NCBI RefSeq assembly: GCF_963678225.1
Contig: NZ_OY782764.1
Location: 186,001-250,000 of the forward strand
Length of the DNA: 64,000 nt
Source of the DNA: an uncultured Cohaesibacter sp.
GTDB taxonomy: Bacteria; Pseudomonadota; Alphaproteobacteria; Rhizobiales; Cohaesibacteraceae
Direction of reading: 5' to 3'
Positions 24,713-60,376 of this stretch are shown one piece after another. The notes under the pieces were generated by a model. The model was not told the origin of the DNA. It did not search any database and was given only the letters and a program-made list of their open reading frames with translations. Each line of letters starts with the position of its first letter. Positions within the stretch are counted from its first letter, which is position 1. Made by a program: the position numbers and the translations under genes.

Positions 24713-25923
24713 CTAAAGCGAGAAGTCTTCGCCAAAGCCGAAATTCTCGGTCACATAGTCAATGTCCTTGTCGCCACGACCGGACAGGTTGACCAGAATG
24801 CTTTCTCCCGGATGCGCCGGAGCCATCTTCATGGCATAAGCCACCGCATGAGAGCTTTCCAACGCCGGAATGATGCCTTCATATTTGCTGAGTGCATAGA
24901 AAGCCTTCAAGGTCTCTTCATCGCTGGCAGAGCCATAATTCACCTTGCCGATGGTGTGCAGATAGGAATGCTCCGGCCCGACACCGGGATAATCAAGGCC
25001 AGAAGCAATGGAATGCACTGGAGCCGGTTCGCCCTTGTCATCGGTCAGCACCAGGCATTTGAAGCCGTGGATCTCGCCCGGATGTCCATAGGTGATGTCG
25101 CGGCATGCTGGCCGAGCTCGGAGCCCTTGCCATGCGGCTCAACACCATAGAGCTTCACATCCTCATTGTCGAGAAAGCCGGAAAACAGCCCCATGGCATT
25201 GGAGCCGCCACCGACGCAGGCCACCACATGATCCGGGTCCAGCCCCGTCATGGCCTGAAACTGGTCTCGAGCTTCAAAGCCAACAACAGACTGGAAGTCG
25301 CGCACCATTTTCGGGAAAGGATGAGGCCCGACAACAGATCCAATGGCATAGATGGCCTCGTCAGCTTGCTCAAGATAGGCCATAAAGGCGCTGTCGACCG
25401 CTTCCTTGAGGGTCTTGCCACCAAAAGACACCGGCACAACCTCGGCCCCGAGCAATTTCATGCGGATCACGTTGGGGTGTTCCTTGGCGATATCCACTTC
25501 GCCCATATGGATCTCGCATTCCATGCCGAAATAGGCCGCGGCCGTGGCAAGCGCCACGCCATGCTGTCCAGCACCGGTTTCCGCGATCAGCTTCTTCTTG
25601 CCCATGAATTTGGCCAGAAGCGCTTCACCCATGCAGTGATTGAGCTTGTGCGCCCCGGAATGGTTCAGATCTTCGCGCTTGAGATAAATCTGTGCCCCGC
25701 CCATCTTTTCCGACAAATTCTTGGCATGCTGGACAGGCGTCGGGCGGCCCTGAAAATGCTCGCGAATATAGCGAAGCTCCGCAATGAAGGAGCTGTCCAC
25801 GGCAATACGCTCATAGGCCTCGCCGATTTCCTTGAAATGGGGCACCAGCTGTGGCGGCAGAAAAGCGCCACCGAAATCACCAAAATAGCCTTCCTTATTT
25901 GGAAATTGCTTCAAATATCCCAT
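24713..25923 (-). pseudogene. trpB: Stand-alone tryptophan synthase beta-like protein, frameshifted
   Basis: Two overlapping frames together encode one TrpB-like protein. The first (from ATG 25923) gives [19 protein letters not shown], the PLP lysine region [33 protein letters not shown] and [15 protein letters not shown], then runs out of frame after [10 protein letters not shown] and stops at 25045. The second frame (24713-25051) restores the family C-terminus: [45 protein letters not shown]. Adding one base near 25097 gives a 403-residue protein of normal length. No slippery sequence is visible, so it is a recent inactivation or a sequence error. No trpA adjoins it. Confidence 0.85.
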
Positions 25924-26058
25924 AATTCTTCTCCGACTGTTTTATGGTATTTGCTTTTTTGTACAACCACACTAACCAATCAAATACACTCTGAACAGCG
26001 CCAACCCGCAAGGGATTGCCAACAAATAGGCCCCCTGTACACGAGCGGCGAATATGAT

Positions 26059-26142
26059 ATGTGTTATACGCGAATTATCGCTTGCACTGGTCTTGGCTTT
26101 CAGCCATATGCAGGCCAACGCAAGCACATGTTGACGCAATAG
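26059..26142 (+). CDS. Putative 27-residue leader peptide of speA
   Basis: ATG 26059 to TAG 26142 encodes a 27-residue peptide beginning MCYTRIIACTG and ending KHMLTQ. Its stop codon ends eight bases before the core stem of an intrinsic terminator hairpin that precedes speA. A second small frame (ATG 26054, 26 codons) overlaps it in another phase. There is no strong Shine-Dalgarno. It is proposed as a leader peptide only because of its position; translation is not shown. The two Arg codons (CGA, CGC) and single Gln/Met end offer no strong codon-stalling signature. Confidence 0.3.
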   Translation: MCYTRIIACTGLGFQPYAGQRKHMLTQ

Positions 26143-26172
26143 AAACAGAAGCCCGGTAACGGGCTGTTTTTT
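26094..26172 (+). promoter_or_regulatory. Candidate transcription attenuator in the speA leader
   Basis: Three helices compete: TGGCT/AGCCA (26094-26098 with 26102-26106); GGCTTT/GAAGCC (26095-26100 with 26148-26153, one G-U), a possible antiterminator; and the terminator stem GCCCG/CGGGC (26151-26155 with 26160-26164, loop GTAA), extended by AAACA/TGTTT and followed by TTTTTT at 26167-26172. The T-run is directly before the speA ribosome binding site, so the hairpin cannot serve an upstream gene on this strand. Confidence 0.6.
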
Positions 26173-26190
26173 CATCAAGAGGACGGGCGA

Positions 26191-28089
26191 TTGAGCACTA
26201 CGGAACAGGAGGCTCCCTGCGCAATCTATGGCATTGAGCGCTGGGGCAATGATCGGTTCGAAGTTCTGGACAATGGCAACATTGGCCTCATCACAGATCA
26301 CGCAGAAGGGCCCGTCACAACGGACCTGACTTCTATCTTGCATTCACTGGAAGAGCGCGGCATCGCCTCCCCCATTTTGTTGCGCGTGGCCAACAGCCTG
26401 AAAAACCAGATTGATCGCATCAATATGAGTTTCGCCAACGCGATGAAGGAGCTTGACTATAAAGCCAACTATCGCGGCGTGTTCCCCATCAAGGTCAACC
26501 AGCAGGCCCATGTGATCGAAAAGATCGTCGAATATGGCGCGCCGCATAATTTTGGCCTTGAAGTCGGCTCAAAACCGGAATTGATCATTGCTCTGGGCCA
26601 GCGCCTTTCCAAAGATGCGCTGCTCATCTGCAATGGCATCAAGGATAGTGAATTCATCAATCTGGCCCTGCTCTCCAGCAAACTCGGCTTCAACACGATC
26701 ATCGTGCTGGAAAGCAAGGCTGAGCTGGATCTGGTGCTTGAAGAATCCAAAAAGCTCAATATCCGCCCGCAGCTTGGCATCCGCATCAAGCTGAATAACC
26801 GCATCACCGGCAACTGGGCTTCCTCCTCGGGGGATCGGTCAGCCTTTGGCCTGTCTTCACCGGACGTGCTATATGTGATCGACCGTCTGCGCGATGAAGG
26901 CTATCTGGATTGCCTGCAACTGCAGCATTTTCATCTGGGCAGCCAGGTCCCCGACATCATTGACGTACGCCGTTCGGCGGCTGAGGCTTGTCGCTTCTTT
27001 GTTGAACTGCGCAAGGAAGGGGCTCCGCTCAACTATATCGATCTGGGCGGCGGTCTCGGGATCGACTATACCGGCGAGCACAAATCCACCGATAACTCCA
27101 TCAACTATTCCACCGACGAATATTGCTATTCCATCGTCGAGGCCGTGAAAAACACGATGGACGATGCGGAACAGAAGCACCCCACCATCGTGACCGAAAG
27201 CGGGCGCGCAACGGTGGCCTACAGCTCCATGCTGCTGTTCAACATCATCAATGTGACCCATTATGAAGAAGACAACATTGTCGAGGTCTCAGAGGATGAC
27301 GATCGCTCCATTCGCGATATGCGCGATGTCGAGACCTACCTGACGCCAAGCCGCTTGCAGGAGTGCCTTAACGACGTCACCTTCTACCGCGATGAAGTGC
27401 GCCGCAATTTCGGACGCGGCGAAGTGGGTCTGCGCGATCTGGCCAAGGCAGAGAAACTCTATCTCAACCTGATCGCCAAGATGCGCAAGGCAACAGAGGC
27501 CGATGAATGGGTCTCCGATGACGTGCTGAGCGCCCTTGAATCGGCAGCTGACATTTATCACGCCAACTTCTCGCTGTTCCAGTCTCTACCCGATGTCTGG
27601 GCCATTGACCAGTTGCATCCGATCATCCCGATCCAGCGGCTCAATGAGACACCGACCCGCCGCGCGATTCTGTCCGACATCACCTGCGACAGTGATGGCA
27701 AAGTGGATCAGTTCGTGCTTGCCGATGGTATTTCCTCGTCTCTTCCAGTGCATGCTCTGGAAGAAGACGAGCATTATTGCATGGCCGTCTTCTTTGTCGG
27801 CGCGTATCAGGAAACGCTGGGTGATTTGCATAATCTGTTTGGCGACACCAACGTGGCAACCATCGAGATCAAACCGAACGGCGACTTCAACCTCATCCAC
27901 GAAGTGGAAGGGGACACCATTGCAGAAGTGCTCAGCTACGTGGAATATAACACGACAGCATTGTCCAACAGCTTCAAGCAGATGGTTGAAGAAGCGGTCT
28001 CTAATAAGAAGCTGACCGTGAAGGAACGCAAGGCCATGATGAATGCTTTCAAGGAAAGCATGAACGGCTATACTTATTTCGAGCATTAA
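26191..28089 (+). CDS. speA: Biosynthetic arginine decarboxylase
   Basis: The 632-residue protein matches SpeA (658 in E. coli), a PLP fold-III decarboxylase making agmatine from arginine. Visible blocks include YRGVFPIKVNQQAHVIEKIV with the PLP lysine, FGLEVGSKPEL, LQHFHLGSQVPDI, IDLGGGLGIDY, TESGRATVAYSS and the C-terminal SDITCDSDGK and VGAYQETLGDLHNLFGD. The start codon is TTG, supported by AGAGGA seven bases upstream; no nearby ATG fits. It opens the polyamine operon and lies behind the candidate attenuator described here. Weak initiation plus attenuation would suit a feedback-controlled enzyme. Confidence 0.95.
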   Translation: MSTTEQEAPCAIYGIERWGNDRFEVLDNGNIGLITDHAEGPVTTDLTSILHSLEERGIASPILLRVANSLKNQIDRINMSFANAMKELDYKANYRGVFPIKVNQQAHVIEKIVEYGAPHNFGLEVGSKPELIIALGQRLSKDALLICNGIKDSEFINLALLSSKLGFNTIIVLESKAELDLVLEESKKLNIRPQLGIRIKLNNRITGNWASSSGDRSAFGLSSPDVLYVIDRLRDEGYLDCLQLQHFHLGSQVPDIIDVRRSAAEACRFFVELRKEGAPLNYIDLGGGLGIDYTGEHKSTDNSINYSTDEYCYSIVEAVKNTMDDAEQKHPTIVTESGRATVAYSSMLLFNIINVTHYEEDNIVEVSEDDDRSIRDMRDVETYLTPSRLQECLNDVTFYRDEVRRNFGRGEVGLRDLAKAEKLYLNLIAKMRKATEADEWVSDDVLSALESAADIYHANFSLFQSLPDVWAIDQLHPIIPIQRLNETPTRRAILSDITCDSDGKVDQFVLADGISSSLPVHALEEDEHYCMAVFFVGAYQETLGDLHNLFGDTNVATIEIKPNGDFNLIHEVEGDTIAEVLSYVEYNTTALSNSFKQMVEEAVSNKKLTVKERKAMMNAFKESMNGYTYFEH

Positions 28090-28132: not shown

Positions 28133-28203
28133 CTCCCAATCGACAAAGGTGCCATGGTTTCGGCATCTTTGCCGGTGCATTATGGGAGACAGGCAGGTCT
28201 GTC
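28133..28203 (+). promoter_or_regulatory. Structured leader before carboxyspermidine dehydrogenase
   Basis: CTCCCA (28133-28138) pairs with TGGGAG (28183-28188), enclosing a 9-bp helix 28145-28153/28162-28170 (one G-U) with an 8-base loop. A third helix, GACAG/CTGTC (28188-28192 with 28199-28203), stacks beside it. A GGGA at 28184-28187 can alternatively pair with TCCC near 28217-28220. No T-run follows. It does not match a riboswitch class I can name. Confidence 0.45.
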
Positions 28204-28241
28204 AGGCTGGCAGATATCCCTCTGAAAAGAAGGACATTGAT

Positions 28242-29447
28242 ATGAACAAAGTTCTGGTCATCGGCGCTGGTGGCGTCGGCTCCGTCGTCATTCATAAAAT
28301 GGCGCAGCTTTCCGATATCTTCGGAGAAATTACTCTTGCTTCCCGACGTATTTTCAAATGCGACGAGATCGCCGCGTCCGTGAAAGAGCGCACCGGCGTT
28401 TCCATCAAGACAGCAGAAGTGGATGCCGATGATGTGGAAGCCCTTTCGGCTCTCATCGACAAACTTGGTGTGTCTCTGGTGGTCAACGTGGCCCTGCCTT
28501 ATCAGGACCTCAACATCATGGATGCCTGCCTGAAGTCCGGCGTCAACTATCTCGACACAGCCAACTATGAGCCGCGTGACGTGGCCAAGTTCGAATATAG
28601 CTGGCAGTGGGCCTATCAGCAGCGCTTCGAAGAAGCTGGCCTGATGGCGTTGCTCGGTTCTGGTTTCGACCCGGGTGTTACCAACATCTACACCGCCTAT
28701 GCCAAGAAGCATCTGCTCGACCGTATCGACACGCTTGACATTCTCGATTGCAATGGTGGCGACCATGGCCAGCATTTTGCGACCAACTTTAACCCGGAAA
28801 TCAACATCCGCGAAGTCACCGCGCCTGTCCATCACTGGGAGAATGGCGAATGGGTCACCACCCCGGCCATGTCCAACAAACAGCCATTTGACTTCCCCGC
28901 TGTGGGCGAGAAGAACATGTACCAGATGTATCACGAAGAGCTGGAAAGCCTTGTGAAGCATCTGCCGGAAATCAAGCGCGCCCGCTTCTGGATGACCTTC
29001 GGCGATGCCTATATCAAGCATCTGGAAGTGCTGCAGAATGTCGGCATGACCCGCATTGATCCTGTCATGTATGAGGGCAAGGAAATCATCCCGCTGCAGT
29101 TCCTCAAAGCCGTGCTGCCAAACCCGGGTGATCTGGGCAAGACCACCAAGGGAAAGACCTGCATCGGCAACATCATGACCGGTGAGAAAGACGGCAAGGA
29201 AAAGACCGTCTATGTCTACAATATCTGCGACCATGAAGAATGCTTCGCCGAGGTTGGCTCTCAGGCCGTGTCCTACACCACCGGCGTGCCTGCCATGATC
29301 GGCGCGGCCCTGATGCTCACCGGAGCATGGTCTGGCAAGGGCGTGTTCAACATGGAACAGCTCGACCCCGATCCTTTCATGGACATGCTCAACAAGCATG
29401 GCCTGCCATGGGAAGCCCATGAGCTGGACAAACCGCTGGATTTCTAA
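28242..29447 (+). CDS. Carboxyspermidine (carboxynorspermidine) dehydrogenase
   Basis: The 401-residue protein belongs to the saccharopine dehydrogenase-like family. The N-terminal NADPH loop reads VLVIGAGGVGSVVIHKMA, followed by ITLASRR; later blocks are NVALPYQDLNIMDACL, GVNYLDTANYEP, GLMALLGSGFDPGVTNIYTA and SYTTGVPAMIGAALML. It reductively condenses aspartate semialdehyde with putrescine (or diaminopropane) to carboxyspermidine. AAGGA lies seven bases before ATG 28242. Between speA and nspC, it completes the alternative spermidine route that needs no decarboxylated SAM. Confidence 0.92.
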   Translation: MNKVLVIGAGGVGSVVIHKMAQLSDIFGEITLASRRIFKCDEIAASVKERTGVSIKTAEVDADDVEALSALIDKLGVSLVVNVALPYQDLNIMDACLKSGVNYLDTANYEPRDVAKFEYSWQWAYQQRFEEAGLMALLGSGFDPGVTNIYTAYAKKHLLDRIDTLDILDCNGGDHGQHFATNFNPEINIREVTAPVHHWENGEWVTTPAMSNKQPFDFPAVGEKNMYQMYHEELESLVKHLPEIKRARFWMTFGDAYIKHLEVLQNVGMTRIDPVMYEGKEIIPLQFLKAVLPNPGDLGKTTKGKTCIGNIMTGEKDGKEKTVYVYNICDHEECFAEVGSQAVSYTTGVPAMIGAALMLTGAWSGKGVFNMEQLDPDPFMDMLNKHGLPWEAHELDKPLDF

Positions 29448-29546: not shown

Positions 29547-30740
29547 ATGACCGATGCGCCAGTAATGGAAACGCAGGCAGGCGATGCCGGAGCCTTTGCG
29601 ACCTTCGATCTCGCACGTGTGCCTTCCCCCTGCTTTGTTATCGACAAGGCAGCCATCCGGCGCAACCTGCGCATTCTCTCTCAAGTCGGAGAAGCAGCCG
29701 ACGTCAAGGTTCTGCTGGCGCTCAAGGCCTTTTCCTGCTGGGCGCTGGGCGACCTCATCGGCAACTATCTTGACGGCACCTGCGCTTCCGGTCTTTGGGA
29801 AGCCAAGCTGGCCAAGGAGCAATTCTCCGGCGAACTGGCCACCTATTCCGCAGGCTTCAAAGCCGAGGAAATACCCGAAATTCTGGAGCTGTCCGATCAC
29901 CTGATCTTTAACAGCCCGGCGCAGTTCCACCGCTTCGCGCCGCAGATCAAAGCTGCGCGCAAATGGGGCTATGCGCCTGATTTCGGTCTCCGGATCAATC
30001 CCGAACACTCAGAAGGGCATATCGCCAAATATGACCCCTGCGCCATTGGTTCACGCCTTGGCACCCCCATCAGCCAATTGAGCGACGAAGATCTCGCCCC
30101 CTTCTCCGGCATCCATATGCATACCCTGTGCGAACAGGATTTCACGCCCCTCAAGCGCACCTTTGAGGCGGTAGAAGAGCGCCTTGCGCCTTGGCTGCAT
30201 AAGCTTAAATGGCTCAATTTCGGTGGTGGTCACCATATCACCCGCGACGATTATCAGCGTGATGAACTGGTCGACTTCCTCAAAACCATCAAGGCCAAAT
30301 ATGATGTCGAAATCTACCTTGAGCCCGGCGAAGCCGTAGCGCTGGACGCAGGCATTCTAGTGGGTGAAGTGCTGGATGTGACGCGCAATGGCGACGTCAA
30401 CATCGCCATCATGGATATCTCGGCCACTTGCCACATGCCCGATGTTATCGAGGCCCCCTATCGCCCCGCTCTTCTGGGCGAGCAAAAGGGCGGCACATCC
30501 TATCGTTTGGGTGGCCCGTCCTGTCTTGCGGGCGACGTCATAGGAGATTACGAATTCGAGACCGATCTGGAGCTAGGCCAACGCATCGCCTTTCTCGATC
30601 AGGCTCATTATTCGATGGTCAAGACAAACACCTTCAACGGCGTGCGCCTGCCATCCATCGCTATCTGGGATTCAGAAACAGACCAGCTCGACGTCATCCG
30701 CGAGTTCACCTATGCTGAATTCCGCGACCGCCTGTCGTAA
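29547..30740 (+). CDS. nspC: Carboxynorspermidine/carboxyspermidine decarboxylase
   Basis: The 397-residue protein is an alanine-racemase-fold PLP decarboxylase. The PLP lysine is Lys60 in LLALKAFSCWAL; SGLWEAKLAKEQF, GLRINPEHSEG, GIHMHTLCEQDF, WLNFGGGHHITRDDY and EPGEAVALDAG are NspC blocks, with DISATCHMPDVIEAPYRP supplying the second subunit's active-site Cys region. It decarboxylates carboxyspermidine to spermidine (or the nor form to norspermidine). GGAG lies eight bases before ATG 29547. A roughly 20-residue N-terminal extension precedes the conserved fold. Confidence 0.94.
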   Translation: MTDAPVMETQAGDAGAFATFDLARVPSPCFVIDKAAIRRNLRILSQVGEAADVKVLLALKAFSCWALGDLIGNYLDGTCASGLWEAKLAKEQFSGELATYSAGFKAEEIPEILELSDHLIFNSPAQFHRFAPQIKAARKWGYAPDFGLRINPEHSEGHIAKYDPCAIGSRLGTPISQLSDEDLAPFSGIHMHTLCEQDFTPLKRTFEAVEERLAPWLHKLKWLNFGGGHHITRDDYQRDELVDFLKTIKAKYDVEIYLEPGEAVALDAGILVGEVLDVTRNGDVNIAIMDISATCHMPDVIEAPYRPALLGEQKGGTSYRLGGPSCLAGDVIGDYEFETDLELGQRIAFLDQAHYSMVKTNTFNGVRLPSIAIWDSETDQLDVIREFTYAEFRDRLS

Positions 30741-30764: not shown

Positions 30765-31643
30765 ATGCTTGATTTGACCTATCCTGCTTTTCTGGCTTCG
30801 GAACTCACCGACGCTGAAAGCGACCCGCAAACAGCCCTGTTTGAAGTCATTCCTTGCCCGCTGGAAAAGACGGTTTCCTATGGCGCTGGCACGGCTGCCG
30901 GACCGCTGGCGCTGCTGGAAGCAAGTCAGGAACTGGAGCGTTTTGACGGCAAGGGCTTCCCGATCAAAAAGGGCATCATCACCTCTGACGTGATCAATTG
31001 CGATCAATCGATCGAGCAGGTCATGAAGGATCTACGCGCCCACACGGCAGCCAGCGTGGCAGCCGGACGCATTCCCGTCACTCTTGGCGGAGAGCATAGC
31101 CTCTCTTATGGCGCCATAATGGGCGTCGTGGACGCGCTGGATGAGCCGGTTGGCATCATTCAGATCGACGCGCACGCAGACTTGCGCAACGCCTATCAGG
31201 GCCACAAGCATTCCCACGCCTCGGTCATGCATCTGTGCGCCGTGGAACGCCGCCTGCCTCTCATGCAGTTCGGCATCCGCGCTCTTTGCAGTGAGGAGCA
31301 GGATTCACGCATGAATGAGGCGCATATCCAGTTTGTTGATGCGGAAAAGCTTGTCACGGAAGGGATTGCTGCAGTCGACCTGCCGGAAGACTTCCCCGAA
31401 CAGGTCTATATCACCTTTGACGTCGACGGGCTGGACCCATCCATCATGCCGGCAACGGGAACGCCTGTGCCGGGGGGCCTCAGCTACTATCAAAGCCTAC
31501 AGCTCATCGCACACGCCCTCAAGGGCCGCAAATGCGTTGGTCTGGATGTGGTGGAACTAGCCCCCATCGAAGGGCAATGGGCTTGGGACTTCACCGCAGC
31601 CAACCTAACCTACCGCCTGATGGGACTGGTCGGCGGCCACTAA
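30765..31643 (+). CDS. speB: Agmatinase
   Basis: The 292-residue protein has the ureohydrolase manganese motifs GGEHSLS, IDAHADLR, HSHASVMH and FDVDGLDPSIMP. Its place downstream of speA in the same operon points to agmatinase, hydrolysing agmatine to putrescine and urea, rather than arginase. Putrescine is then the substrate of the carboxyspermidine dehydrogenase encoded two genes upstream. It begins 24 bases after nspC. A related guanidinohydrolase activity cannot be excluded from motifs alone. Confidence 0.9.
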   Translation: MLDLTYPAFLASELTDAESDPQTALFEVIPCPLEKTVSYGAGTAAGPLALLEASQELERFDGKGFPIKKGIITSDVINCDQSIEQVMKDLRAHTAASVAAGRIPVTLGGEHSLSYGAIMGVVDALDEPVGIIQIDAHADLRNAYQGHKHSHASVMHLCAVERRLPLMQFGIRALCSEEQDSRMNEAHIQFVDAEKLVTEGIAAVDLPEDFPEQVYITFDVDGLDPSIMPATGTPVPGGLSYYQSLQLIAHALKGRKCVGLDVVELAPIEGQWAWDFTAANLTYRLMGLVGGH

Positions 31644-47553: not shown

Positions 47554-47622
47554 GCGCCTTCATGCTTTCAGGCCGGGCGAAACGCGCTCGGCCTTTCTTT
47601 TTCTCAAGAATTGAGACTTCCC

Positions 47623-59011: not shown

Positions 59012-60175
59012 TTAAAGCGCTGCCTTTTCCTGAGCGAAGGCCCAGTCGAGCCACTTGGTCAGAGCATCCAGATCGGACGCTTCAACCGTGGCACCAGCCC
59101 AGATGCGCAGCCCCGTTGGAGCATCACGATAGGCCCCGATGTCATAGGCAACGCCTTCCTTGTCCAGACGCGCAACCAGCGCCTTGGCAAATTTGGCCTG
59201 AGCAGCATCATCGAGCGCGGCCACATCTTCGTCTACAATGGTAAAGCAGACGGATGTGTTGGACCGGATTGCCTTGTCTTTGGCCAGAAAATCAACCCAA
59301 GGCGTCTTTTCAGCCCAGGCTTCCAACGTGGCAAGGTTGTCATTGGCCCGTTTCATCAGAGCATCAAGGCCACCAATAGTCTTGGACCATTTCAAACCAT
59401 CAAGATAGTCTTCAACGCAAAGCATGGAAGGGGTGTTGATCGTGGCGCCTTCAAAGATGCCTTCGATCAATTTGCCACCCTTGGTCATGCGGAAGATTTT
59501 CGGCATCGGCCATGCTGGCGTGTAGCTTTCCAACCGTTCTACAGCACGAGGGCTGAGGATCAGCATGCCGTGAGCTGCTTCGCCGCCCAGCACTTTCTGC
59601 CAGCTGTAGGTCACAACGTCGAGCTTGTCCCATGCAAGGTCCTGCGCAAAGGCAGCAGAGGTGGCGTCGCAAATGGTCAGACCTTCGCGGTCTGCCGGGA
59701 TCCAGTCGCCATTGGGAACACGCACGCCAGAAGTGGTGCCGTTCCATGTAAAGACAACGTCGCGGGAGAAATCAACTGCACCGAGATCCGGGATCTGGCC
59801 ATAGTCGGCCTTCATCACACGGGTATCATCCAGCTTGAGCTGCTTGACAACATCGGTTGCCCAACCAGCACCAAAACTTTCCCAAACGAGAATATCGGTT
59901 CCCCGCGCACCAAGCAGAGACCACAGAGCCATTTCCACGGCACCCGTATCGGATGCAGGCACGACCCCGATGCGATAATCGGCAGGCACGCCGAGCACTT
60001 CGCGGGTCAGGTCGATCGCTTCTTTCAGCTTGGACTTGCCTAGTTTAGCGCGGTGAGAACGGCCCAGCGGCGCGTCTGCAAGACTGTCTAAAGACCAGCC
60101 AGGACGCTTGGAGCAAGGACCAGAAGAGAAATGGGGATTGTTCGGCCGCACGGCCGGTAGTGTCATATCTGTCAT
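59012..60175 (-). CDS. serC: Phosphoserine aminotransferase
   Basis: The 387-residue PLP enzyme matches the alphaproteobacterial SerC branch: [64 protein letters not shown], and the PLP lysine in [16 protein letters not shown]. It converts 3-phosphohydroxypyruvate to phosphoserine with glutamate as donor. GAGGG lies seven bases before ATG 60175 and is partly hidden in a hairpin. serA follows in the same direction, so serine synthesis steps one and two are linked. Confidence 0.95.
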
Positions 60176-60178
60176 AAA

Positions 60179-60216
60179 GCTACCCTCACAGATAGTTGCC
60201 TCTCGTTGGGGAGAGG
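60179..60216 (-). ncRNA. Structured serC leader, candidate serC RNA motif
   Basis: On the minus strand, the RNA has a hairpin CCTCTC/GAGAGG (60199-60204 with 60211-60216, loop 6 bases) followed by a 5-bp helix CTATC/GGTAG (60191-60195 with 60180-60184, one G-U). The second helix covers part of the GAGGG ribosome binding site. A two-hairpin serC motif is known upstream of serC in Alphaproteobacteria; identity with it is judged from position and layout only. Confidence 0.45.
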
Positions 60217-60376
60217 TGTCCCACTGATCGGGTTACTCTTCTTTGAGACAGGCGTCAAACGGATTCTTGGCGTTGATCACCGTATAGCAACAACAGTTGC
60301 ACTTATATCGCACGACTATCGCTTATGCCCCCACATCAAAGGCACGGAACCGGGATGGCAACGGAGACGCCACGTC

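Follow-up and report, generated by a model that had tools for sequence, protein, structure and literature searches.

A terminator-like hairpin between a predicted promoter and the non-ATG start codon of speA in Cohaesibacter

Introduction

The region in front of speA, the gene of the biosynthetic arginine decarboxylase, in an uncultured Cohaesibacter sp. raises the question of whether this gene is preceded by a classical attenuator, with a leader peptide and mutually exclusive RNA helices, or by a simpler element. A preliminary description of this DNA proposed the former, on the basis of a hairpin followed by a T-run directly before speA, an upstream GGCTTT strand with two possible pairing partners and an overlapping 27-codon ORF. 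This attractive, textbook-looking interpretation is corrected by the analysis described here: the switch strand and the peptide are probably promoter DNA, and what remains is a terminator-like hairpin, restricted to one clade, that sits between a conserved predicted promoter and a non-ATG start codon and offers a simple setting in which passive braking of a polyamine operon can be tested. In the following, the window is the whole 64,000-nucleotide stretch of DNA that was analysed, numbered from its first letter.

Results and discussion

The speA locus and its start codon

The genes and the translation start considered here are the following.

26175–26193, plus strand: ribosome-binding site AAGAGGA and TTG start codon of speA
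26191–28089, plus strand: speA, biosynthetic arginine decarboxylase (TIGR01273 and NF003763, above cut-off)
28149–29447, plus strand: carboxynorspermidine synthase-like gene of the saccharopine dehydrogenase family (PF16653, PF03435)
29547–30740, plus strand: nspC, carboxynorspermidine decarboxylase (TIGR01047, above cut-off)
30765–31643, plus strand: speB-like agmatinase (TIGR01230, narrowly past the cut-off, with 177.4 versus 174.3 bits)

SpeA matches the NCBIfam model TIGR01273 with 706.1 bits (cut-off 624.1), and the carboxynorspermidine synthase-like product matches NF043000 with 451.4 bits, under the cut-off of 800 of that model. Given their gene content, the same-strand genes led by speA are considered to be a polyamine operon; nothing was found in the openly accessible literature on an operon of carboxynorspermidine and arginine decarboxylase genes in alphaproteobacteria. 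Upstream of speA, in the opposite orientation, lies trpB, which in the window is present as two frames (25045–25923 and 24713–25051, minus strand); in L003 the trpB halves share one frame (spacing of 45 versus 44 bases), and the split in the window goes back either to an error in sequencing or to a disrupted gene.

When 18 Cohaesibacter genomes are searched, 16 of them (own genome included) have SpeA at 82 to 100% protein identity, and no match at that level is found in G004 and G008. The speA start, at 26191–26193 in the window, is TTG in 14 and GTG in two of these 16 species, as read off the alignment. The weak start codon that had been pointed out earlier is therefore real and conserved, being non-ATG in 16/16, and in L007 and L015 an in-frame ATG is present a few codons past it.

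The hairpin in front of speA

26150–26172, plus strand: terminator-like hairpin AGCCCG-GTAA-CGGGCT, then G and T6 (kept in L002–L010, with one mismatch in L006)

The stem is formed by 26150–26155 and 26160–26165 (six pairs, five of them G-C) and encloses the loop GTAA (26156–26159); after the stem there is one G and then six T (26167–26172), and 18 bases separate the end of the T-run from the speA TTG. The hallmark of an intrinsic terminator, a G-C-rich stem closely before a U-run, is thus present. With a strict criterion (at least six pairs, five G-C, six T in eight), a site of this quality is found in 0/2000 dinucleotide shuffles of 26110–26190 and in 1/2000 shuffles of the whole intergenic region. 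The site is less striking by a looser criterion (26/2000 and 250/2000 shuffles, respectively) and when 1.1 kb is scanned on both strands, where two terminator sites are found versus 1.7 expected, so that it is the quality of the site that counts and not the mere presence of one. The overall fold of 26041–26190 is ordinary, with a z-score of −1.73 and 11/200 shuffles folding equally well or better. Elsewhere in the 64-kb window one other site found by the strict criterion lies at 47570–47594, between two same-strand genes, this count being a lower bound, as the strict scan leaves stems that run into the T-run untrimmed.

The hairpin together with the U-run is kept in nine of the 16 species (L002–L010, the stem being mismatched in L006), and the U6 directly 3' of the stem is invariant in these nine. 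That an intrinsic-terminator-like hairpin precedes speA, where it can act only on the speA transcript, is thereby borne out. If the U-run is disregarded and any hairpin is counted that has 5 bp or more and ends 20 to 26 nt before the start codon, 12/16 species have one, including L011, L014, L016 and L017, where the stem is another one and the U-run is absent; by the same criterion of at least 5 bp there is no hairpin at that place in L012, L013 and L015. By chance, such hairpins occur in 9 to 124 of 500 shuffles of these leaders, depending on the species. Hairpins without a U-run in four species speak for one of two possibilities: the terminator arose out of a plain hairpin or degenerated to one, or the hairpin serves RNA stability or translation.

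The promoter block and the predicted start of the transcript

26081–26087, plus strand: predicted −35 element CTTGCAC (CTTG(C/G)A in 16/16)
26104–26110, plus strand: predicted −10 element CCATATG (CCATA(T/A)GC in 16/16)
26117–26190, plus strand: predicted 5' UTR of about 74 nt, its start placed from the −10 element
26035–26041, plus strand: upstream box CTGTACA, in L002–L010 (9/16 species, the same nine as for the next block)
26050–26068, plus strand: GAATATGATATGTGTTATA block, about 50 to 67 bases upstream of the predicted start

One block is common to all 16 speA upstream regions, CTTG(C/G)A-N15-18-CCATA(T/A)GC. Its spacer is 15 bases long in L012 and L013, 17 in eleven species and 18 in L015–L017, and the predicted leaders, from the block to the start codon, measure 68 to 143 nt. 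This block is promoter-like in that its hexamers are constant, the spacer differs between species in both sequence and length, and the length of the leader varies too; by its form it would be a sigma70-type promoter at 26081–26110. For Sinorhizobium meliloti, CTTGAC(N17)CTATAT is given as the consensus of a promoter query (PMC2573895), and the −10 element is described as poorly conserved (PMC3616915), as far as the available parts of these papers go. CTTGCA-N17-CCATAT agrees with that consensus at 9/12 positions. Sites with 9/12 matches are only mildly enriched before genes (56 sites before 376 genes versus 34 in coding controls), and the promoter call therefore rests on conservation. An E. 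coli-type promoter scan does not list the speA block. Across the genome the exact pattern matches only speA itself; a looser pattern, which is not used as evidence, has 24 genomic sites including speA, versus four for the reversed control. From the position of the −10 element, transcription is expected to start near 26117. Another promoter candidate, within the leader itself (GTTGAC at 26130, 8/12), was dropped, as it is not kept in the aligned relatives.

Further upstream, 26048–26066 has a mean identity of 0.92 among four representatives. The GAATATGATATGTGTTATA block is kept also in L005 and L008–L010, where 1.5 kb of upstream sequence gives no trpB match, which suggests that it is a speA element. 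No second copy of its 16-base core with fewer than three mismatches occurs in the genome, so that no regulon can be built from it. The GAATATGATATGTGTTATA block may be where an activator or a repressor binds at the speA promoter, or an UP-type site, and CTGTACA and GAATATGATATGTGTTATA together (26035–26068) may likewise form a regulator site.

The proposed switch strand and leader peptide

26095–26100, plus strand: GGCTTT, proposed antiterminator strand, inside the predicted promoter spacer
26059–26142 (stop codon included), plus strand: 27-codon ORF, judged not to be a leader peptide (length variable, absent in 7/16)

The pairings on which the proposal of mutually exclusive helices was built do exist: GGCTTT can pair with AGCC at 26102–26105 or with GAAGCC at 26148–26153. 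GGCTTT is, however, located between the −35 and −10 elements of a block found in 16/16 species and should therefore be absent from the RNA, so that the second half of the proposal, that these helices compete in the transcript, probably does not hold. As GGCTTTC, the strand is invariant in the nine-species clade, and it is not kept as such in L011–L017. Over seven distinct rows, the pairing of GGCTTT with GAAGCC is kept in 95.2% of cells (with a break in L006), that of the terminator stem in 97.6% and that of the GCTTGC helix in 59.5%, and in none of these three helices is a pair changed on both sides. These counts by themselves leave the competing helix standing; it is excluded only by the predicted start site. 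In the predicted nascent RNA no competing fold is seen in L002, L007 and L008, and there is one in L006.

The 27-codon ORF is likewise present in the window as described, and with a start near 26117 its ATG (26059) would lie upstream of the RNA. No counterpart is found in 7/16 species, and in the other nine the ORF ends after 19, 23, 27 or 44 codons. Coding selection is not found when the first 19 codons are compared in pairs of six haplotypes (10 synonymous versus 80 non-synonymous codon differences), and the variable columns number 5, 7 and 4 at codon positions 1, 2 and 3. The ORF start and the terminator are both missing in L011–L017.

Which parts of the leader are conserved

The mean identities among L002, L006, L007 and L008 are 1.00 for the −35 and −10 elements, 0.71 for the spacer, 0.47 for 26117–26147 (the first 31 nt of the predicted UTR), 0.79 for the hairpin with the U-run (26148–26172) and 0.88 from the U-run to the start codon. 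The 4-fold sites of speA, used as neutral yardstick, have identities of 0.49 to 0.60. The first 31 nt of the predicted UTR therefore drift at about the neutral rate, and it is the hairpin and the ribosome site, not this stretch of the leader, that are under selection. Where a cis-acting antiterminator or an aptamer would have to sit, the leader appears not to be conserved, and the predicted transcript seems to encode no conserved antiterminator.

A metabolite riboswitch was dropped as a candidate, given the identity of 0.47 in the 31-nt stretch and the lack of a conserved aptamer. At the gathering score no Rfam family matches the speA region, and permissive settings give only Trp_leader, with an E-value of 7.9. 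The speF leader (RF00518) was also dropped, there being no match to its covariance model.

Strength of the hairpin as a terminator

An 864-kb sample of the same genome, with crude gene calls made without a database, is the reference for terminator strength. In this sample a terminator is found within 120 bases past the stop codon of 55/202 genes with a convergent neighbour, versus 1/141 control windows. The median energy of these 55 gene-end terminators is −17.4 kcal/mol; the speA hairpin, with −10.9 kcal/mol, is at their weak end, only 7/55 being weaker, and its U-run (at least six T in seven) is matched or exceeded by 22/55. Hairpin energy and U-run rank would fit a leaky terminator.

Just before a start codon, terminator-like sites are found at 15/609 called genes of the 864 kb. 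Of these 15, 13 lie behind a gene on the same strand (at a distance of up to 160 bases in 11 cases) and probably terminate that gene. Among 202 genes with a divergent neighbour, a site before the start is present only at speA and in one weaker case.

In computed folds of the predicted nascent RNA, the terminator core is paired with a probability of at least 0.96 in L002, L007 and L008. In L006 the mismatched stem has an energy of −5.6 kcal/mol, there is a competing upstream hairpin and the terminator pairs at a probability of about 0.33. In this leader two CGGG partners, one upstream and one downstream, are available to the CCCG of the terminator arm, and it is possible that, by these computed folds, L006 alone has a true switch.

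Interpretation of the hairpin

The element as a whole is real, conserved and of an ordinary kind, a terminator-like and probably leaky hairpin within a short 5' UTR. More specifically, we would explain it as an intrinsic terminator that is leaky and confined to one clade, in a predicted UTR of about 74 nt, without a cis-acting antiterminator, with both the start site and termination deduced from the DNA; this specific version could as well hold as fail. It would work as follows. The sigma70-type promoter at 26081–26110 would transcribe the speA-led polyamine genes with a 5' UTR of about 74 nt, and at about +34 to +56 of the RNA the 6-bp hairpin, followed by GUUUUUU, would form before the ribosome site is made, so that ribosomes could not interfere. 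The weak terminator would let only part of the polymerases pass and thereby keep the operon low, and the conserved non-ATG start codon would add to this low output. If there is regulation, its source would be the promoter with its upstream block, a trans-acting factor or an ion or polyamine effect on termination. Overall the element resembles a plain brake more than an attenuator of the classical type.

What counts against a terminator is that 7/16 species are without the U-run and that in four of these a hairpin with 5 or more bp still occupies the same position; a hairpin kept without a U-run suits a non-terminator role. The main rival explanation, which we consider rather unlikely, is accordingly that the hairpin mainly protects the RNA or leaves the ribosome site accessible, the U-run aiding ribosome loading or pairing with the Shine-Dalgarno sequence. 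A U-run next to a Shine-Dalgarno sequence can help ribosome loading by S1 binding. This rival would account for the hairpins in 12/16 species, for the other stems of the four without U-run, for the pairing of the U-run with AGAGGAC in the computed folds of L007–L010 and for a stem that is weak for a terminator of this genome; the invariant U6, directly after the stem as in a terminator, speaks against it, as does the chance frequency of such hairpins, which are not very rare in the shuffles. The hairpin could also be a chance structure without effect, as its restriction to one clade and a U-run lost or never there in 7/16 species might suggest, but the strict shuffles (0/2000) and conservation above the neutral level make this very unlikely.

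Two further explanations retain an attenuator. In one of them, which is quite doubtful, a protein or the polyamine or magnesium level decides on termination in the short leader. The position of the site before a polyamine gene set, the premature termination in the E. coli speA 5' UTR (PMC7815308, in the part available) and a small hairpin upstream of the terminator in the folds of L006–L010, albeit of differing sequences, point in that direction; the near-neutral leader 5' of the hairpin argues that no conserved binding site is present there, and no Rfam family reaches the threshold in the speA region. The other, a leader-peptide attenuator on a longer RNA begun upstream of 26059, is highly unlikely. 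The invariance of GGCTTTC in the nine-species clade and its well-kept pairing with the terminator arm are in its favour, and the conserved CTGTACA and 26050–26068 block could hold a second promoter (best match 8/12). These points have to be set against the location of GGCTTT inside the spacer of the 16/16 promoter block, the ORF with its 10 versus 80 codon differences and an end that is not fixed, the GCTTGC helix that pairs in just 59.5% of cells, and L011–L017, which are without ORF start and without terminator. As a caution, attenuators should not be called without a start site.

Comparison with known systems

In the classical leader-peptide attenuators, such as those of trp and his, the terminator precedes the structural genes. 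Cohaesibacter speA differs from these in having neither a supported leader peptide nor a transcribed antiterminator.

The preliminary description knew of no attenuator of this type before speA, which overlooked two cases. In the accessible text on E. coli, Rho-dependent premature termination is described in the speA 5' UTR, with yqgB as a potential uORF upstream of speA (PMC7815308). Premature termination in the speA 5' UTR, described for E. coli and proposed for Cohaesibacter, is the shared feature, but in E. coli it is Rho-dependent, whereas in Cohaesibacter the signal has the look of an intrinsic one and a uORF lacks support. For the gammaproteobacterium Shewanella oneidensis, a terminator is predicted in the speA 5' UTR and post-transcriptional control is proposed (PMC2659441); as described in the part of that paper at hand, the prediction is computational, and the likeness to Cohaesibacter is one of description only.

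Two leaders of alphaproteobacteria are also comparable, as far as the available part of their description goes (PMC1273637). In serC (RF00517), as at speA, only a short leader with a hairpin separates the promoter from the start codon; in serC the hairpin has been proposed to occlude the ribosome site, whereas the speA hairpin precedes that site and has a U-run. A serC leader is also present in the window (60175–60226, minus strand, 72.2 bits), and TTGACG-N17-TAACCC is read by eye upstream of it. The speF leader (RF00518), like that of speA, belongs to a decarboxylase gene of the polyamine pathway, but it is long and structured (the Agrobacterium tumefaciens construct starts from −400) and RF00518 gives no match at speA. 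No earlier report on the Cohaesibacter speA leader was found in the openly accessible literature, which was sampled thinly.

speA leaders outside Cohaesibacter

Strong SpeA relatives (E-values up to 1e-100) are found in 12/386 sampled genomes of the class, own genome included. In 13 alphaproteobacterial speA leaders from outside Cohaesibacter no hairpin with a T-run is seen by eye beside the start codon; a scan of the same 13 gives sites further upstream in five (L018, L062, L064, L065 and L069), and those of L018, L062 and L064 are read as terminators of the gene upstream.

At the level of the phylum, SpeA is present in 145/397 sampled genomes (own included), and the leader set covers 130 of these 145, with 15 left out. 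A terminator-like site near the start is found in 19/157 leaders (eight from Cohaesibacter, 11 from others) versus 0 to 4 per shuffled set (20 sets), in a scan where start codons are guessed by script, related genomes are not independent and terminators of upstream genes (L062, L064) are included; the excess is therefore no more than a lead. Owing to its stem mismatch, L006 escapes this automatic scan. Outside Cohaesibacter the flagged leaders are 11/141, and at least two of them belong to the upstream gene. It is conceivable, and in our view very unlikely, that promoter-proximal intrinsic terminators about 25 nt before the speA start arose independently in several proteobacterial lineages, with read-through tuned by polyamines or cations without a leader peptide or aptamer; if this were true, the hairpin and the U-run would themselves be the sensor.

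Four of the 11 flagged leaders fall among the 20 of family f232, and two of these, L162 and L186, have a long T-run. In both, a hairpin GCTGCC..GGCAGC and then the T-run are found just before the speA start, and several relatives of the same family have a hairpin-like stretch at that place without such a T-run.
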